A stretch of 64,000 nt of DNA from an uncultured Alistipes sp. (GTDB lineage: Bacteria > Bacteroidota > Bacteroidia > Bacteroidales > Rikenellaceae), in assembly GCA_949285535.1 (NCBI GenBank), contig CASDZP010000006.1, forward strand, positions 1 to 64,000, read 5' to 3'. Positions 50,440 to 57,785 of this stretch are shown one piece after another. The notes under the pieces were generated by a model. That model ran no database searches and was not told the DNA's origin. It worked only from the letters and a program-made list of their open reading frames with translations. The position numbers and the translations under genes were made by a program. Position 1 is the stretch's first letter, and every line of letters starts with the position of its first letter.

Positions 50440-51466
50440 AACCCGAGTTTCGGATAAAAACCGTCAAAAAATGCAAAATAGCGGAAAGTTTGTTGTTTTT
50501 AAAATACTGAAAAACAAATAAATAACAAACAAATTTCGCTATGTTTAGTTTTGATATTTTTTGTATTTGTGATGATTTTTGTCGAGAATTTGATGCAGAG
50601 TCATCAAAAAATGCAATTGAGATAGTAAAGTATCGAGGTTGTGGTAAACGTAAACTCGAGATTTCTGATTCGGAAATCATTATAATATTGACAATATTTC
50701 ACACAAATACATTTCGTAATTTCAAACATTTCTACCTCCATTGTGTGCTTGAAAATTTCAAAGAATTATTTCCGAAAGCACCTTCCTATTCTCGTTTTGT
50801 TGGTTTGACGAAACGTGTGGGTACCAAAATGTTCTTCTTTCTGAGACTGTGTCTTTTAGGAGAATGCACAGGCATCTCTTTTGTCGATTCCACATGCATT
50901 CCGATATGTCACAATCGAAGAATTTATAGGAATAAAGTGTTTGCCTGGGTTGCACAAAGAGGTAAAAGTACCATGGGGTGGTTCTTCGGGTTCAAGCTAC
51001 ATCTGCTGTGTAATGAGAGAGGGGAATTGTTGGATTTTGTGTTGACAAAAGGCAATATAGACGACTGCGATAAAATGATTTTCAACGTGTTCAGTAAAGA
51101 TATTTTCGGGAAACTATATGCAGATAGAGGTTATGTCGGCAAGAGTCTGTTTGAAATGTTATGGAACAATAACGTGCACATTGTTACCGGATTAAAGGCG
51201 AACATGAAAAATAAACTTATGTCTTTATGGGATAAAATAATGCTTAGAAAACGATTCATTATTGAGACAATTAATGACCAGCTGAAGAATGTCTGTCAAC
51301 TTGCGCATTCAAGACACCGATGTATCGATAATTTTCTTGTTAACATACTGGCTGCATTGTGTGCATATTGCTTTTTTGACAAGAAACCAGCTATTAATGT
51401 CGACTTCAATTTAAAAAAGGAAAAAACAACTCGCTTTGTGGATGTGATTTATCCGAAATTCAGGTT
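50440..51466 (+). mobile_element. IS982-family insertion sequence
   Basis: Terminal inverted repeats of 19 bases: AACCCGAGTTTCGGATAAA at 50440-50458 and, reversed, AACCTGAATTTCGGATAAA at 51466-51448 (two mismatches). The transposase gene lies between them. ACCCGA-type ends are typical of IS982. No convincing target-site duplication is seen. It marks the junction between purC and the A/T-rich accessory region. Confidence 0.88.
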
Positions 51467-51494
51467 AGTTTATAGTCTCTTTTTTACTAAGTAG
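50541..51494 (+). CDS. IS982-family transposase
   Basis: A 317-residue DDE transposase. Catalytic segments are FVDSTCIPICHNRR (first Asp), GFKLHLLCNERGEL, KLYADRGYVGKSLF (second Asp) and RFIIETINDQLKNVCQLAHSRHR (Glu). The frame looks intact. Its last 9 codons and stop lie beyond the right inverted repeat (51448-51466), so the C-terminal residues and stop codon are supplied by flanking DNA. It may still be active. Confidence 0.93.
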   Translation: MFSFDIFCICDDFCREFDAESSKNAIEIVKYRGCGKRKLEISDSEIIIILTIFHTNTFRNFKHFYLHCVLENFKELFPKAPSYSRFVGLTKRVGTKMFFFLRLCLLGECTGISFVDSTCIPICHNRRIYRNKVFAWVAQRGKSTMGWFFGFKLHLLCNERGELLDFVLTKGNIDDCDKMIFNVFSKDIFGKLYADRGYVGKSLFEMLWNNNVHIVTGLKANMKNKLMSLWDKIMLRKRFIIETINDQLKNVCQLAHSRHRCIDNFLVNILAALCAYCFFDKKPAINVDFNLKKEKTTRFVDVIYPKFRLVYSLFFTK

Positions 51495-55234: not shown

Positions 55235-56410
55235 CTACTCCTTGAAATTGATTGGCAAAGTAAATTTTACTCGTACGACTTGACCGCTCTGTTTCCCAGG
55301 TTCCCATTTTGGAGAAGATTCCAATACTCTTATGGCTTCATTCGACAAAGAAGGATCTGTACTGTTCTGTATTTCTATATAACCTACAGACCCGTCTTTT
55401 TCAACAACAAAATGACATATCACTCTTCCCGCTATCTTTTCCCCTTCTGTATTTATGGGTTGTCGCAGATTTTGCTGAACCCAAGAATGAAAATTGTTTA
55501 AATCTCCTCCTTGAAACATCGGCATAATCTCTGCCCTTAAATATGGAGATTCCGGTTTCCCGGGATCTTCTGTCCTTTTAAGTCCGACAAACGGTTGGCC
55601 GAAAAGACGTTCTATCCAGTGGTACAAGGGCATCTCATCTTCGAGAAAATCGATCATACTCTCAGAAGAGTTTCCCAAAGGGATATAGTCGTATATTAGG
55701 TTGGAACAAGAGTCGTTTAATATTGTTTTGTAATGTTGGTCGCCAATGACAATTGTCCCGTAATCACTCTTCGTAGCTTCCAGTAACACTGTTTTTGTTC
55801 CGGTTGAATTGTCAAACTCTACAATTCTCATTGCGACACCGTGGTCATATATATACTTTCTTATGTACTGTATGCCTCTTCTCTTGTATTGTTCGATCCA
55901 TTCGCCGGAGGCCAGTCCTTGCTCATCAAATTGCCCTTTGATGGAATAACCCTGATTGGTGGTTGCCGTTAATGTACCTGCAAATTTATTTTCATTAAAC
56001 GAGGTATTTATTGATAAATCTTCTTTTTGGAAAGTATATGCTCCATTCAACTTCCCGGATTTAAAACTGTATTTTAACAGGCCCTCCGTTTTCCCGCTTA
56101 TATTATCAAACCAGGTTTCCGTCCATTGTCCCGTTTGTTTCCCGTGTTCATAATGTCCAGATACATTCGCGAGACACCCTAATAATGATGGGGAGACATT
56201 AGAAGTATAAAAAGTGCCATGCCAAACTCTCTCATCGCCATCTTCGTAATATTGATACGAGACATTTATTATGTCAGACCGTATTGAACTAATCATTGAC
56301 GCTGGCGTTTTTAATGGCCCATTATAAGTCTTTATGGTTTGTGCCATTGATGTGTTTATCGTCCATAATGGGACAATAAATAATACACTGATAATTGTCC
56401 TGAGTTTCAT
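55235..56410 (-). CDS. Exported protein with MORN-like repeats and TonB-type C-terminal domain
   Basis: A 391-residue protein with a signal peptide (residues 1-24). Residues 45-200 hold MORN-like repeats (GHYEHGKQTGQWTETWF, KSGKLNGAYTF, GQFDEQGLASGEWIEQY). The last 80 residues are a TonB_C domain (GRVICHFVVEKDGSVGYIEI, NEAIRVLESSPKWEPGKQSGQ). ATG 56410 is chosen over a TTG two codons upstream. First gene of the five-gene operon. The TonB domain here is probably a protein-interaction module, since the usual N-terminal membrane anchor and ExbBD partners are missing. Confidence 0.8.
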   Translation of the reverse strand: MKLRTIISVLFIVPLWTINTSMAQTIKTYNGPLKTPASMISSIRSDIINVSYQYYEDGDERVWHGTFYTSNVSPSLLGCLANVSGHYEHGKQTGQWTETWFDNISGKTEGLLKYSFKSGKLNGAYTFQKEDLSINTSFNENKFAGTLTATTNQGYSIKGQFDEQGLASGEWIEQYKRRGIQYIRKYIYDHGVAMRIVEFDNSTGTKTVLLEATKSDYGTIVIGDQHYKTILNDSCSNLIYDYIPLGNSSESMIDFLEDEMPLYHWIERLFGQPFVGLKRTEDPGKPESPYLRAEIMPMFQGGDLNNFHSWVQQNLRQPINTEGEKIAGRVICHFVVEKDGSVGYIEIQNSTDPSLSNEAIRVLESSPKWEPGKQSGQVVRVKFTLPINFKE

Positions 56411-56608
56411 AGTCAATAAAATTTTATTTTGTCAAATAAACTATGCGGTAAAAATTTAAAAGAGATAGTCTCGTTGCTTGTATTAACATGTCTGTATCCC
56501 TTTCGATGGGCATGTTTCTGTTAATCTTGAATAAACGTCTCTGATTGTCGGAGTCTTGCCTGTATGGTCATGGATACAAATACGAGCTTTCATCATTATA
56601 CATATAAT

Positions 56609-56837
56609 AAAAAAAGTGCGGAACCTGCTGCCTTCCATCCGGACAACAAGCACCGCCAAGCGCTCTCAACCCTAAATAGAAAAACAAGCAGTCCGCACTA
56701 TGTCAGTGCAGACCGTGCTTATTCTTCCCGGGTTGAGTCGGTAACGATTTCGTCACCTCAAAATTGGCGGTTTTGTTATCCTGGGAATCCTAAGATTCAC
56801 GTGTCTTATATTATGTTACATACGTTTTATCGTATGC
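56609..56837 (-). ncRNA. Highly structured non-coding RNA, class unassigned (6S-like layout)
   Basis: A transcript of about 230 bases is predicted from a TATATTTG -7 box (56851-56844) to a seven-T run (56615-56609). Long-range helices nest exactly, given as plus-strand pairs: 56641-56649 with 56773-56781 (9 bp, one G-U), 56652-56659 with 56764-56771 (8 bp), 56665-56672 with 56730-56737 (8 bp), 56686-56690 with 56716-56720, and an apical hairpin 56691-56699 with 56705-56713. A side hairpin, 56740-56746 with 56751-56757, makes a three-way junction. The 3' end GCACTTTTTTT can pair back to the 5' side. A plus-strand frame of 103 codons overlaps but shows no family. It could be 6S RNA or a new family. 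Confidence 0.7.
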
Positions 56838-56843
56838 ATGGCA

Positions 56844-56851
56844 CAAATATA
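56844..56851 (-). promoter_or_regulatory. -7 element of the structured RNA
   Basis: TATATTTG on the minus strand; a TTTG lies upstream, but 14 bases away rather than 19-21. Confidence 0.5.
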
Positions 56852-56981: not shown

Positions 56982-57785
56982 ATGGAAAGGATGATAGAGC
57001 ATATAGAAAGATTGAAGGATGCGGTCGTCGCTGTATTTGGGCAGACATTAGATTCTCCGACAGATTACGAGCGGTTGTCCTCTGATATCCAGAAGAGAAC
57101 AGGCGAATTGATTAGTGTGTCGACTCTAAAACGATTGTTCGGATATATCAAGCCAGGGACAATTCCGCGTCCGTCCACCTTGTCAGTCTTGGCTCGTTAT
57201 GTTGGGAGTACCGGATGGAGCGATTTCTGTTCCAAATGTTCCAAGGAAGAGGATTTGGAGTCTCGTAAGGTCTCAAAGAAACCGATCTATCGTCACCCGA
57301 TCGTATATATTGCGATTATGATTCTGTGTGTTGGTGGAGTCTTCTTATGGCTGGGCTGGGGGAATAACTGGGAAAATACTACAGAGCCCCTTTTGAGAAA
57401 CAAAGAGGTTCCGGTTATTCTTTCGGATATAGAAGAAACGAGTGATCAAAAATACGAACGATTGTTACTCTCATTCATCGCCATGTCCAAGGAAAAATGT
57501 GATTCGGTACGGGCTTGTCGTCAAAATATGGATATTATATCTTACAAGGAATTGGTGGATAGTGTTTATTTCCCTTTTGTTTTCACATTCCTGCAGGACT
57601 CTATCAAACGACAAGTAGAAAGAACATTTCCAAATGATGAATTGCTGAGAGTTCGCTACGGTAATGATATATTTGCACAATGTCGTGAAATATGTGTGGA
57701 GTTAATGCGAGAGATTCCTTCCGCAGAACTTTCAGAGGCATATGAAAGGAGAAGAAAGTCTCGCCTTACATCTCAACAAAATTGA
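56982..57785 (+). CDS. HTH-transmembrane protein (Bacteroidetes regulator type)
   Basis: A 267-residue protein. The N-terminal 85 residues resemble a Bacteroidetes HTH-like domain (DYERLSSDIQKRTGELISVS, TLKRLFGYIKPGTIPRPSTL, LARYVGSTGWSDFCS). A single transmembrane helix (about 103-123) follows and then a soluble, probably extracytoplasmic, helical domain. Start is 56982 or the ATG at 56991; a promoter -7 box (TATCTTTG 56969-56976) ends just 5 bases before the first ATG. It is divergent from the structured RNA and the zinc-ribbon operon and may regulate them; that is inference. Confidence 0.72.
   Translation: MERMIEHIERLKDAVVAVFGQTLDSPTDYERLSSDIQKRTGELISVSTLKRLFGYIKPGTIPRPSTLSVLARYVGSTGWSDFCSKCSKEEDLESRKVSKKPIYRHPIVYIAIMILCVGGVFLWLGWGNNWENTTEPLLRNKEVPVILSDIEETSDQKYERLLLSFIAMSKEKCDSVRACRQNMDIISYKELVDSVYFPFVFTFLQDSIKRQVERTFPNDELLRVRYGNDIFAQCREICVELMREIPSAELSEAYERRRKSRLTSQQN

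Follow-up and report, generated by a model that had tools for sequence, protein, structure and literature searches.

The RNA read from the minus strand between positions 56837 and 56609 of the window (the whole 64,000-nucleotide stretch of DNA analysed, from an uncultured Alistipes sp.) is one member of a large 5' leader RNA family in which two folds are both conserved: state A, a pair of tandem hairpins of which the second forms a predicted terminator, and state B, a long rod. Conservation of both states is concluded from the native-specific pairing of the segments involved, the co-formation of pairing 1:2 with pairing 3:4, and the terminator hairpin and U7 run of the window copy. The RNA is probably the 5' leader of the transcription unit downstream of it, acting as a regulated attenuator of four segments with two exclusive pairings. 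The attenuator logic is of the known four-segment type; the RNA itself is absent from Rfam 15 and, in the text searched, is not described in Weinberg 2010, two surveys of the Breaker laboratory, Fremin and Bhatt 2021, or the B. thetaiotaomicron atlases. Its relatives precede genes that number in the hundreds and are unrelated to one another, most of them encoding secreted or defence proteins, and apparently constitute an unnamed class of genetic switch.

The minus-strand RNA of 56600-56840 has a folding energy of -97.1 kcal/mol, compared with -58.4 ± 4.4 kcal/mol for dinucleotide shuffles (z -8.82; 0 of 200 shuffles as stable); the plus strand of the same interval is also structured, more weakly (z -5.78). 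A preliminary description of this DNA had claimed a strongly structured RNA with pairing beyond chance, which is borne out; its three-way junction is upheld, and its nested helices, side hairpin, seven-T run and TATATTTG box are each present. The box (56844-56851, minus strand, as are all features of the element) matches the Bacteroides -7 box TAnnTTTG, with a predicted transcript start near 56837. The RNA begins with a 5' variable hairpin, GCAUACG..CGUAUGU (56818-56837), at the place of which loci L036, L037 and others have similar hairpins of different sequence. Segment 1 (56783-56802) carries the hairpin GAAUC-UUAG-GAUUC and is the alternative partner of segment 2, as judged from the native-versus-permuted 1:2 comparison and the window fold. 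The 5' strand of helix P1, GGAUAACA (56774-56781), is followed by hairpin A, CAAAA-CCGCCAA-UUUUG (56759-56775), the loop of which (CCGCCAA, 56764-56770) complements the loop of hairpin B; the junction side hairpin (56740-56757) is variable in sequence and, in folds of the window copy and its homologues, occurs in some sub-clades only. The inner stem P2 is formed by CUCAACCC (56730-56737) and GGGUUGAG (56665-56672), and encloses the tip hairpin, whose 5' arm is segment 2 (56705-56729, from pairing calculations across copies) and whose 3' arm is segment 3 (56678-56699), the alternative partner of segment 4 in the terminator fold. Hairpin B, AGCGC-UUGGCG-GUGCU (56649-56664), contains the loop strand UUGGCGG (56653-56659), and its stem covaries between CG, UA, UG and GU and with A-U for G-C; the 3' strand of P1, UGUUGUCC, lies at 56641-56648, and both P1 strands display compensatory changes in a 35-row alignment of the family. 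Segment 4 is the tail GCAGCAGGUUCCGCAC (56616-56631), which complements segment 3 and is followed by the U7 run (56609-56615), a predicted intrinsic terminator U-tract. The resulting 3:4 hairpin of the window (56616-56699) has an energy of -36.8 kcal/mol (z -4.35), with U7 immediately after it. A U-rich stretch also follows the tip hairpin (2:3) at 56689-56715, and is terminator-like by a simple scan; polymerase may therefore pause, or terminate a second time, within the rod.

The family was reached by BLAST, which turned up one more copy in the own genome plus two from other genera; covariance model R1 was built from these four copies, and the 35-row alignment gave model R2. R1 matches 30 of the 268 genomes taken from the same taxonomic family, while R2 matches 124 of 393 Bacteroidales genomes and 74 of 205 genera (cut-off E 0.01), and 9 of 296 genomes of a phylum-wide draw, the own genome included, at the stricter cut-off of E 0.001. 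Eight genomes subjected to deeper scoring have 3 to 27 copies each. A pattern scan of named genomes, checked with R2, places the element in Prevotellaceae, Bacteroidaceae, Paraprevotella clara, Hoylesella loescheii, Dysgonomonas, Maribellus and Alistipes, and in a few Flavobacteriia, Kapaibacterium, Lentisphaerae and Kiritimatiellae; viral contigs also carry copies. Two further copies lie in the own genome, L036 (8020-8186 of contig 5) and L313 (1314-1453 of contig 26), the latter preceding a gene that resembles a GDSL-type lipase. A locus search seeded with the divergent regulator of the window yielded no relatives. None of the 4227 Rfam 15 families scores above its gathering cut-off in the window or for any of ten canonical copies, so the covariance-model search proposed in the preliminary description returns no known class; at a relaxed cut-off the window region gives only chance-level scores. 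The 6S models RF00013 and RF01685 (6S-Flavo) have no match in the window region even when E values as high as 10 are allowed, and their cut-off is reached nowhere in the genomes checked.

Covariation supports the core of the structure. In the 35-row alignment 98.3% of cells are paired, compared with 81.5% when shuffled and 31-48% when slid by one to three columns. All six tested pairs of the P1 closing helix are 100% paired, with three or four pair types each and compensatory changes throughout; this extensive change in the outer core helix of the homologues is the covariation for which the preliminary description had called. Pairing reaches 99.2% in the loop helix CCGCCAA:UUGGCGG, where UCGCC and CGACC occur as replacements, and hairpin B (GGYG..URCC) is 99.3% paired, its third pair being C-G, U-A, U-G or G-U; one G-U pair of hairpin B is invariant, in 35 of 35 rows and in 164 of 164 copies. 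The stem of hairpin A is AT-rich and has moderate support. These figures lean towards P1 and the loop helix because the alignment was fitted to both, yet the range of pair types found in P1 is strong evidence despite that fit. The loop helix crosses hairpin B, and the two must therefore be alternatives or form a kissing loop. A structured, conserved core with compensatory changes, as is characteristic of riboswitches, is thereby present.

The rod recognized in the preliminary description is only one of two folds, since the tail before the U-run also complements the 3' arm of the tip, which had been missed; similarly, the 5' hairpin region complements the 5' arm of the tip. Mean native and permuted duplex energies (kcal/mol) over 95 diverged copies are -16.9 and -10.8 for 1:2 (z -20), -26.8 and -15.8 for 2:3 (z -28), and -25.6 and -15.4 for 3:4 (z -27); part of the 2:3 signal follows from the method, because segments 2 and 3 were defined from the fold of each copy, whereas 1:2 and 3:4 were used neither in finding nor in aligning the family. 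The same copies show no native excess for 1:3 or 2:4, and 1:4, the basal helix of the rod as first drawn, is weakly native-specific (-11.2 versus -9.8, z -5, against -20 to -28 for the other three) and was set aside. When 3:4 is enforced, 1:2 also forms in 159 of 164 copies and hairpin B caps the 3:4 hairpin in 161 of 164, with a mean 3:4 length of 19 bp; where the tail binds the tip, 87% of the tip bases involved belong to the 3' arm. The mutually exclusive arrangement of a four-segment attenuator, 1:2 with 3:4 versus 2:3, is thus what the copies contain. State B is on average about 11 kcal/mol more stable than state A in nested energies, and state A therefore requires co-transcriptional kinetics, kissing of the A and B loops, or a bound factor.

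The pairings also carry a strand signature: for each of 1:2, 2:3 and 3:4, G-U pairs give the sense RNA an advantage of 3 to 8 kcal/mol over its reverse complement, and P1 has 78 G-U cells against 41 A-C cells, which indicates an RNA of the sense strand. This asymmetry, together with the invariant G-U pair of hairpin B, speaks against a repeat that functions at the level of DNA, either as a mobile or recombination element or as the insertion-sequence terminators termed 'mobile attenuators' (PMC2965389). Such a repeat would account for a near-palindromic element, some copies of which match the model on both strands, and for its multicopy, sporadic occurrence before unrelated genes and in viral contigs; pairing is nonetheless kept while the copies diverge, and the promoter box and ATG spacing recur, and this is considered the least probable of the explanations weighed here. 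A recombination site or MITE is likewise disfavoured by the G-U asymmetry and the divergence of the copies.

In the attenuator model, pairings 1:2 and 3:4 of state A would form a pair of adjacent hairpins, with hairpins A and B as their caps; the second of the pair would abut the U-run and transcription would terminate, and where a start codon directly follows the tail this hairpin would be placed to block translation. In state B, 2:3 would pair while P1 and the complementary A and B loops zip into the long rod, and the freed tail would allow RNA polymerase to pass (antitermination). The loops CCGCCAA and UUGGCGG may kiss in state A and would lie within the continuous rod in state B, and are for this reason the likely pivot. 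Actual termination is predicted; which state prevails at a given time would depend on some signal that shifts the balance, be it a small molecule, a protein, another RNA or a physical condition. A bolder and rather doubtful proposal is that of an orphan riboswitch class, with the kissing-loop core as ligand sensor for a general signal, by which surface and defence genes, horizontally shuffled and in large sets, would be switched together in Bacteroidales.

The surroundings of the copies fit a leader. Of 164 copies, 97 have the TAnnTTTG box upstream (5.9 expected) and 132 have a U-run after the tail, compared with 11 of 164 in a control stretch; a 3:4 hairpin followed by a U-run is the succession seen in attenuators. 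In the remaining 32 copies no clear U-run is present, and in just some of these a start codon comes right after the tail; in L119, L130 and L096 a small protein gene has its start codon within a few bases of the tail, which by sequence suggests a translational version. By position the element is placed as a 5' leader: 126 of 135 copies share their strand with the next gene, the orientation of the upstream gene is mixed (72:52), and the distance from core end to ATG is mostly 45-110 nt, centred near 70; L044 and L054 are without a same-strand gene just downstream. No consistent leader ORF or conserved leader peptide is seen across the 164 copies (an ATG falls in the segment 1 region in only 47, and the interval from promoter box to segment 1 is short), which renders a ribosome-stalling mechanism unlikely.

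L043 and L044 have near-identical leaders and divergent genes, and at L044, in one of the two genomes, the downstream gene is swapped for a locus that carries an opposite-facing DNA methyltransferase-like gene. Retention of the RNA after its old neighbour was replaced by a modification-type locus could be read, with the rod shape, own promoter and U-run, as the mark of an independent trans-acting small RNA of the 6S type that lies upstream of genes by chance. The likeness to 6S RNA raised in the preliminary description does not survive, however: neither the window nor the canonical copies match a 6S model, a 6S RNA is expected in few copies untied to genes rather than in several to 27 per genome at a fixed placement, and a same-strand ATG recurs at the preferred distance, leaving this explanation very improbable.

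The proteins encoded downstream are unrelated; the leading domains among 128 are BspA-type leucine-rich repeats (11), BACON (4) and dockerin (3), and the set also includes type III methyltransferases, Mrr endonucleases and AbiGi. An N-terminal hydrophobic segment, by a crude measure and against a control set that includes spurious ORFs, is present in 74 of 99 downstream proteins of at least 150 residues (75%) versus 225 of 686 other ORFs of the same loci (33%). In genome G586, which has 27 copies, most of those with downstream sequence precede one secreted protein family, with the ATG 73-80 nt past the core; this genome holds a large paralogous set of such proteins (L278-L297; NNIRVDGKTRV..WDNSWRDDFNWDAAW), many with a leader upstream. 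On viral contigs (L220, L226, L236, L241, L248) and at the similar bacterial locus L055, a small lipoprotein-like gene that may serve in phage lysis comes before the leader, which is followed by phage-moron-like cargo such as restriction-type enzymes. Placement between a small lipoprotein-like gene and cargo, as in phage morons with their own promoter, and the lack of a shared pathway among downstream genes would both suit a constitutive module, in which a promoter, a stable mRNA-protecting 5' structure and a leaky terminator travel with accessory genes and no regulated switch exists. The joint upkeep of 1:2, 2:3 and 3:4 by compensatory change is hard to explain unless both folds are needed, and the constitutive module is considered unlikely beside the regulated attenuator.

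The window copy reads towards the zinc-ribbon operon, the head of which is the first long downstream gene (55238-56410, minus strand), a candidate regulated gene for a TonB C-terminal domain protein. Here about 200 nt separate the U-run from the ATG, rather than the usual few tens, and this interval contains a putative 37-codon ORF just past the U-run (56483-56596, minus strand; MMKARICIHDHTGKTPTIRDVYSRLTETCPSKGIQTC); for this reason the role of leader suggested earlier for the operon at 56410 is less certain for the window copy than a leader role is for the family, although the window copy may control the whole zinc-ribbon operon. L036 and L037, among the closest relatives of the window copy, lie directly before zinc-ribbon genes; a special zinc-ribbon link is true of these two and of the window operon, and fails for the family. 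The divergent protein at 56982-57785 has no Pfam match; G024, and apparently L042 (G073), also have it next to the leader. A different divergent gene (..HRLRLIRNTTGELS..), encoding some 480 residues and with no convincing Pfam match, is common to L036, L037, L039, L040 and L043. Just past the distal end of the zinc-ribbon operon lies a probable insertion-sequence transposase ORF (50541-51494).

With copies in roughly one in three of the Bacteroidales genomes sampled, such a cis-regulatory RNA would be a main route of accessory-gene control in these dominant gut bacteria, the genes concerned being those for BspA-type leucine-rich-repeat proteins, BACON proteins, lipoproteins, restriction-modification systems and AbiGi-type proteins. 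As the same leader stands before unrelated genes, identification of the signal would at once place uncharacterised genes by the hundred in a regulon, and the two folds lend themselves to simple, direct mutational tests.

Among known systems, trp-type attenuators share the pairings 1:2, 2:3 and 3:4, with 3:4 and the U-run as terminator and 2:3 as antiterminator; the element described here differs in its long interposed P1 helix, its complementary hairpin loops and its many unrelated targets per genome, with no leader peptide and no common downstream pathway seen. Riboswitches with many unrelated targets are known in the c-di-GMP classes; these likewise have a conserved core, dispersed copies and a variable expression platform, here mostly a terminator with few start-codon-adjacent tails, whereas the conserved nucleotides of the present element are mainly two loop-complementary strands and its ligand is putative. 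6S RNA (RF00013, RF01685) is similarly a rod of about 200 nt with a U-run, in contrast to which the element is multi-copy and cis-positioned and matches neither model. The palindromic Bacteroidetes candidate RNAs HMP2_4078, HMP2_4205, HMP2_1065 and HMP2_1032 (80-132 bp), one near phage genes and others predicted as terminators (PMC8040213), are by their published description also structured on both strands and are shorter than this element, to parts of which they may or may not correspond. The 'mobile attenuators' of insertion sequences are attenuator-like elements that also precede unrelated genes (PMC2965389); the present family is seen with no common insertion-sequence neighbour and is set apart from them by an elaborate conserved core and a promoter box of its own.
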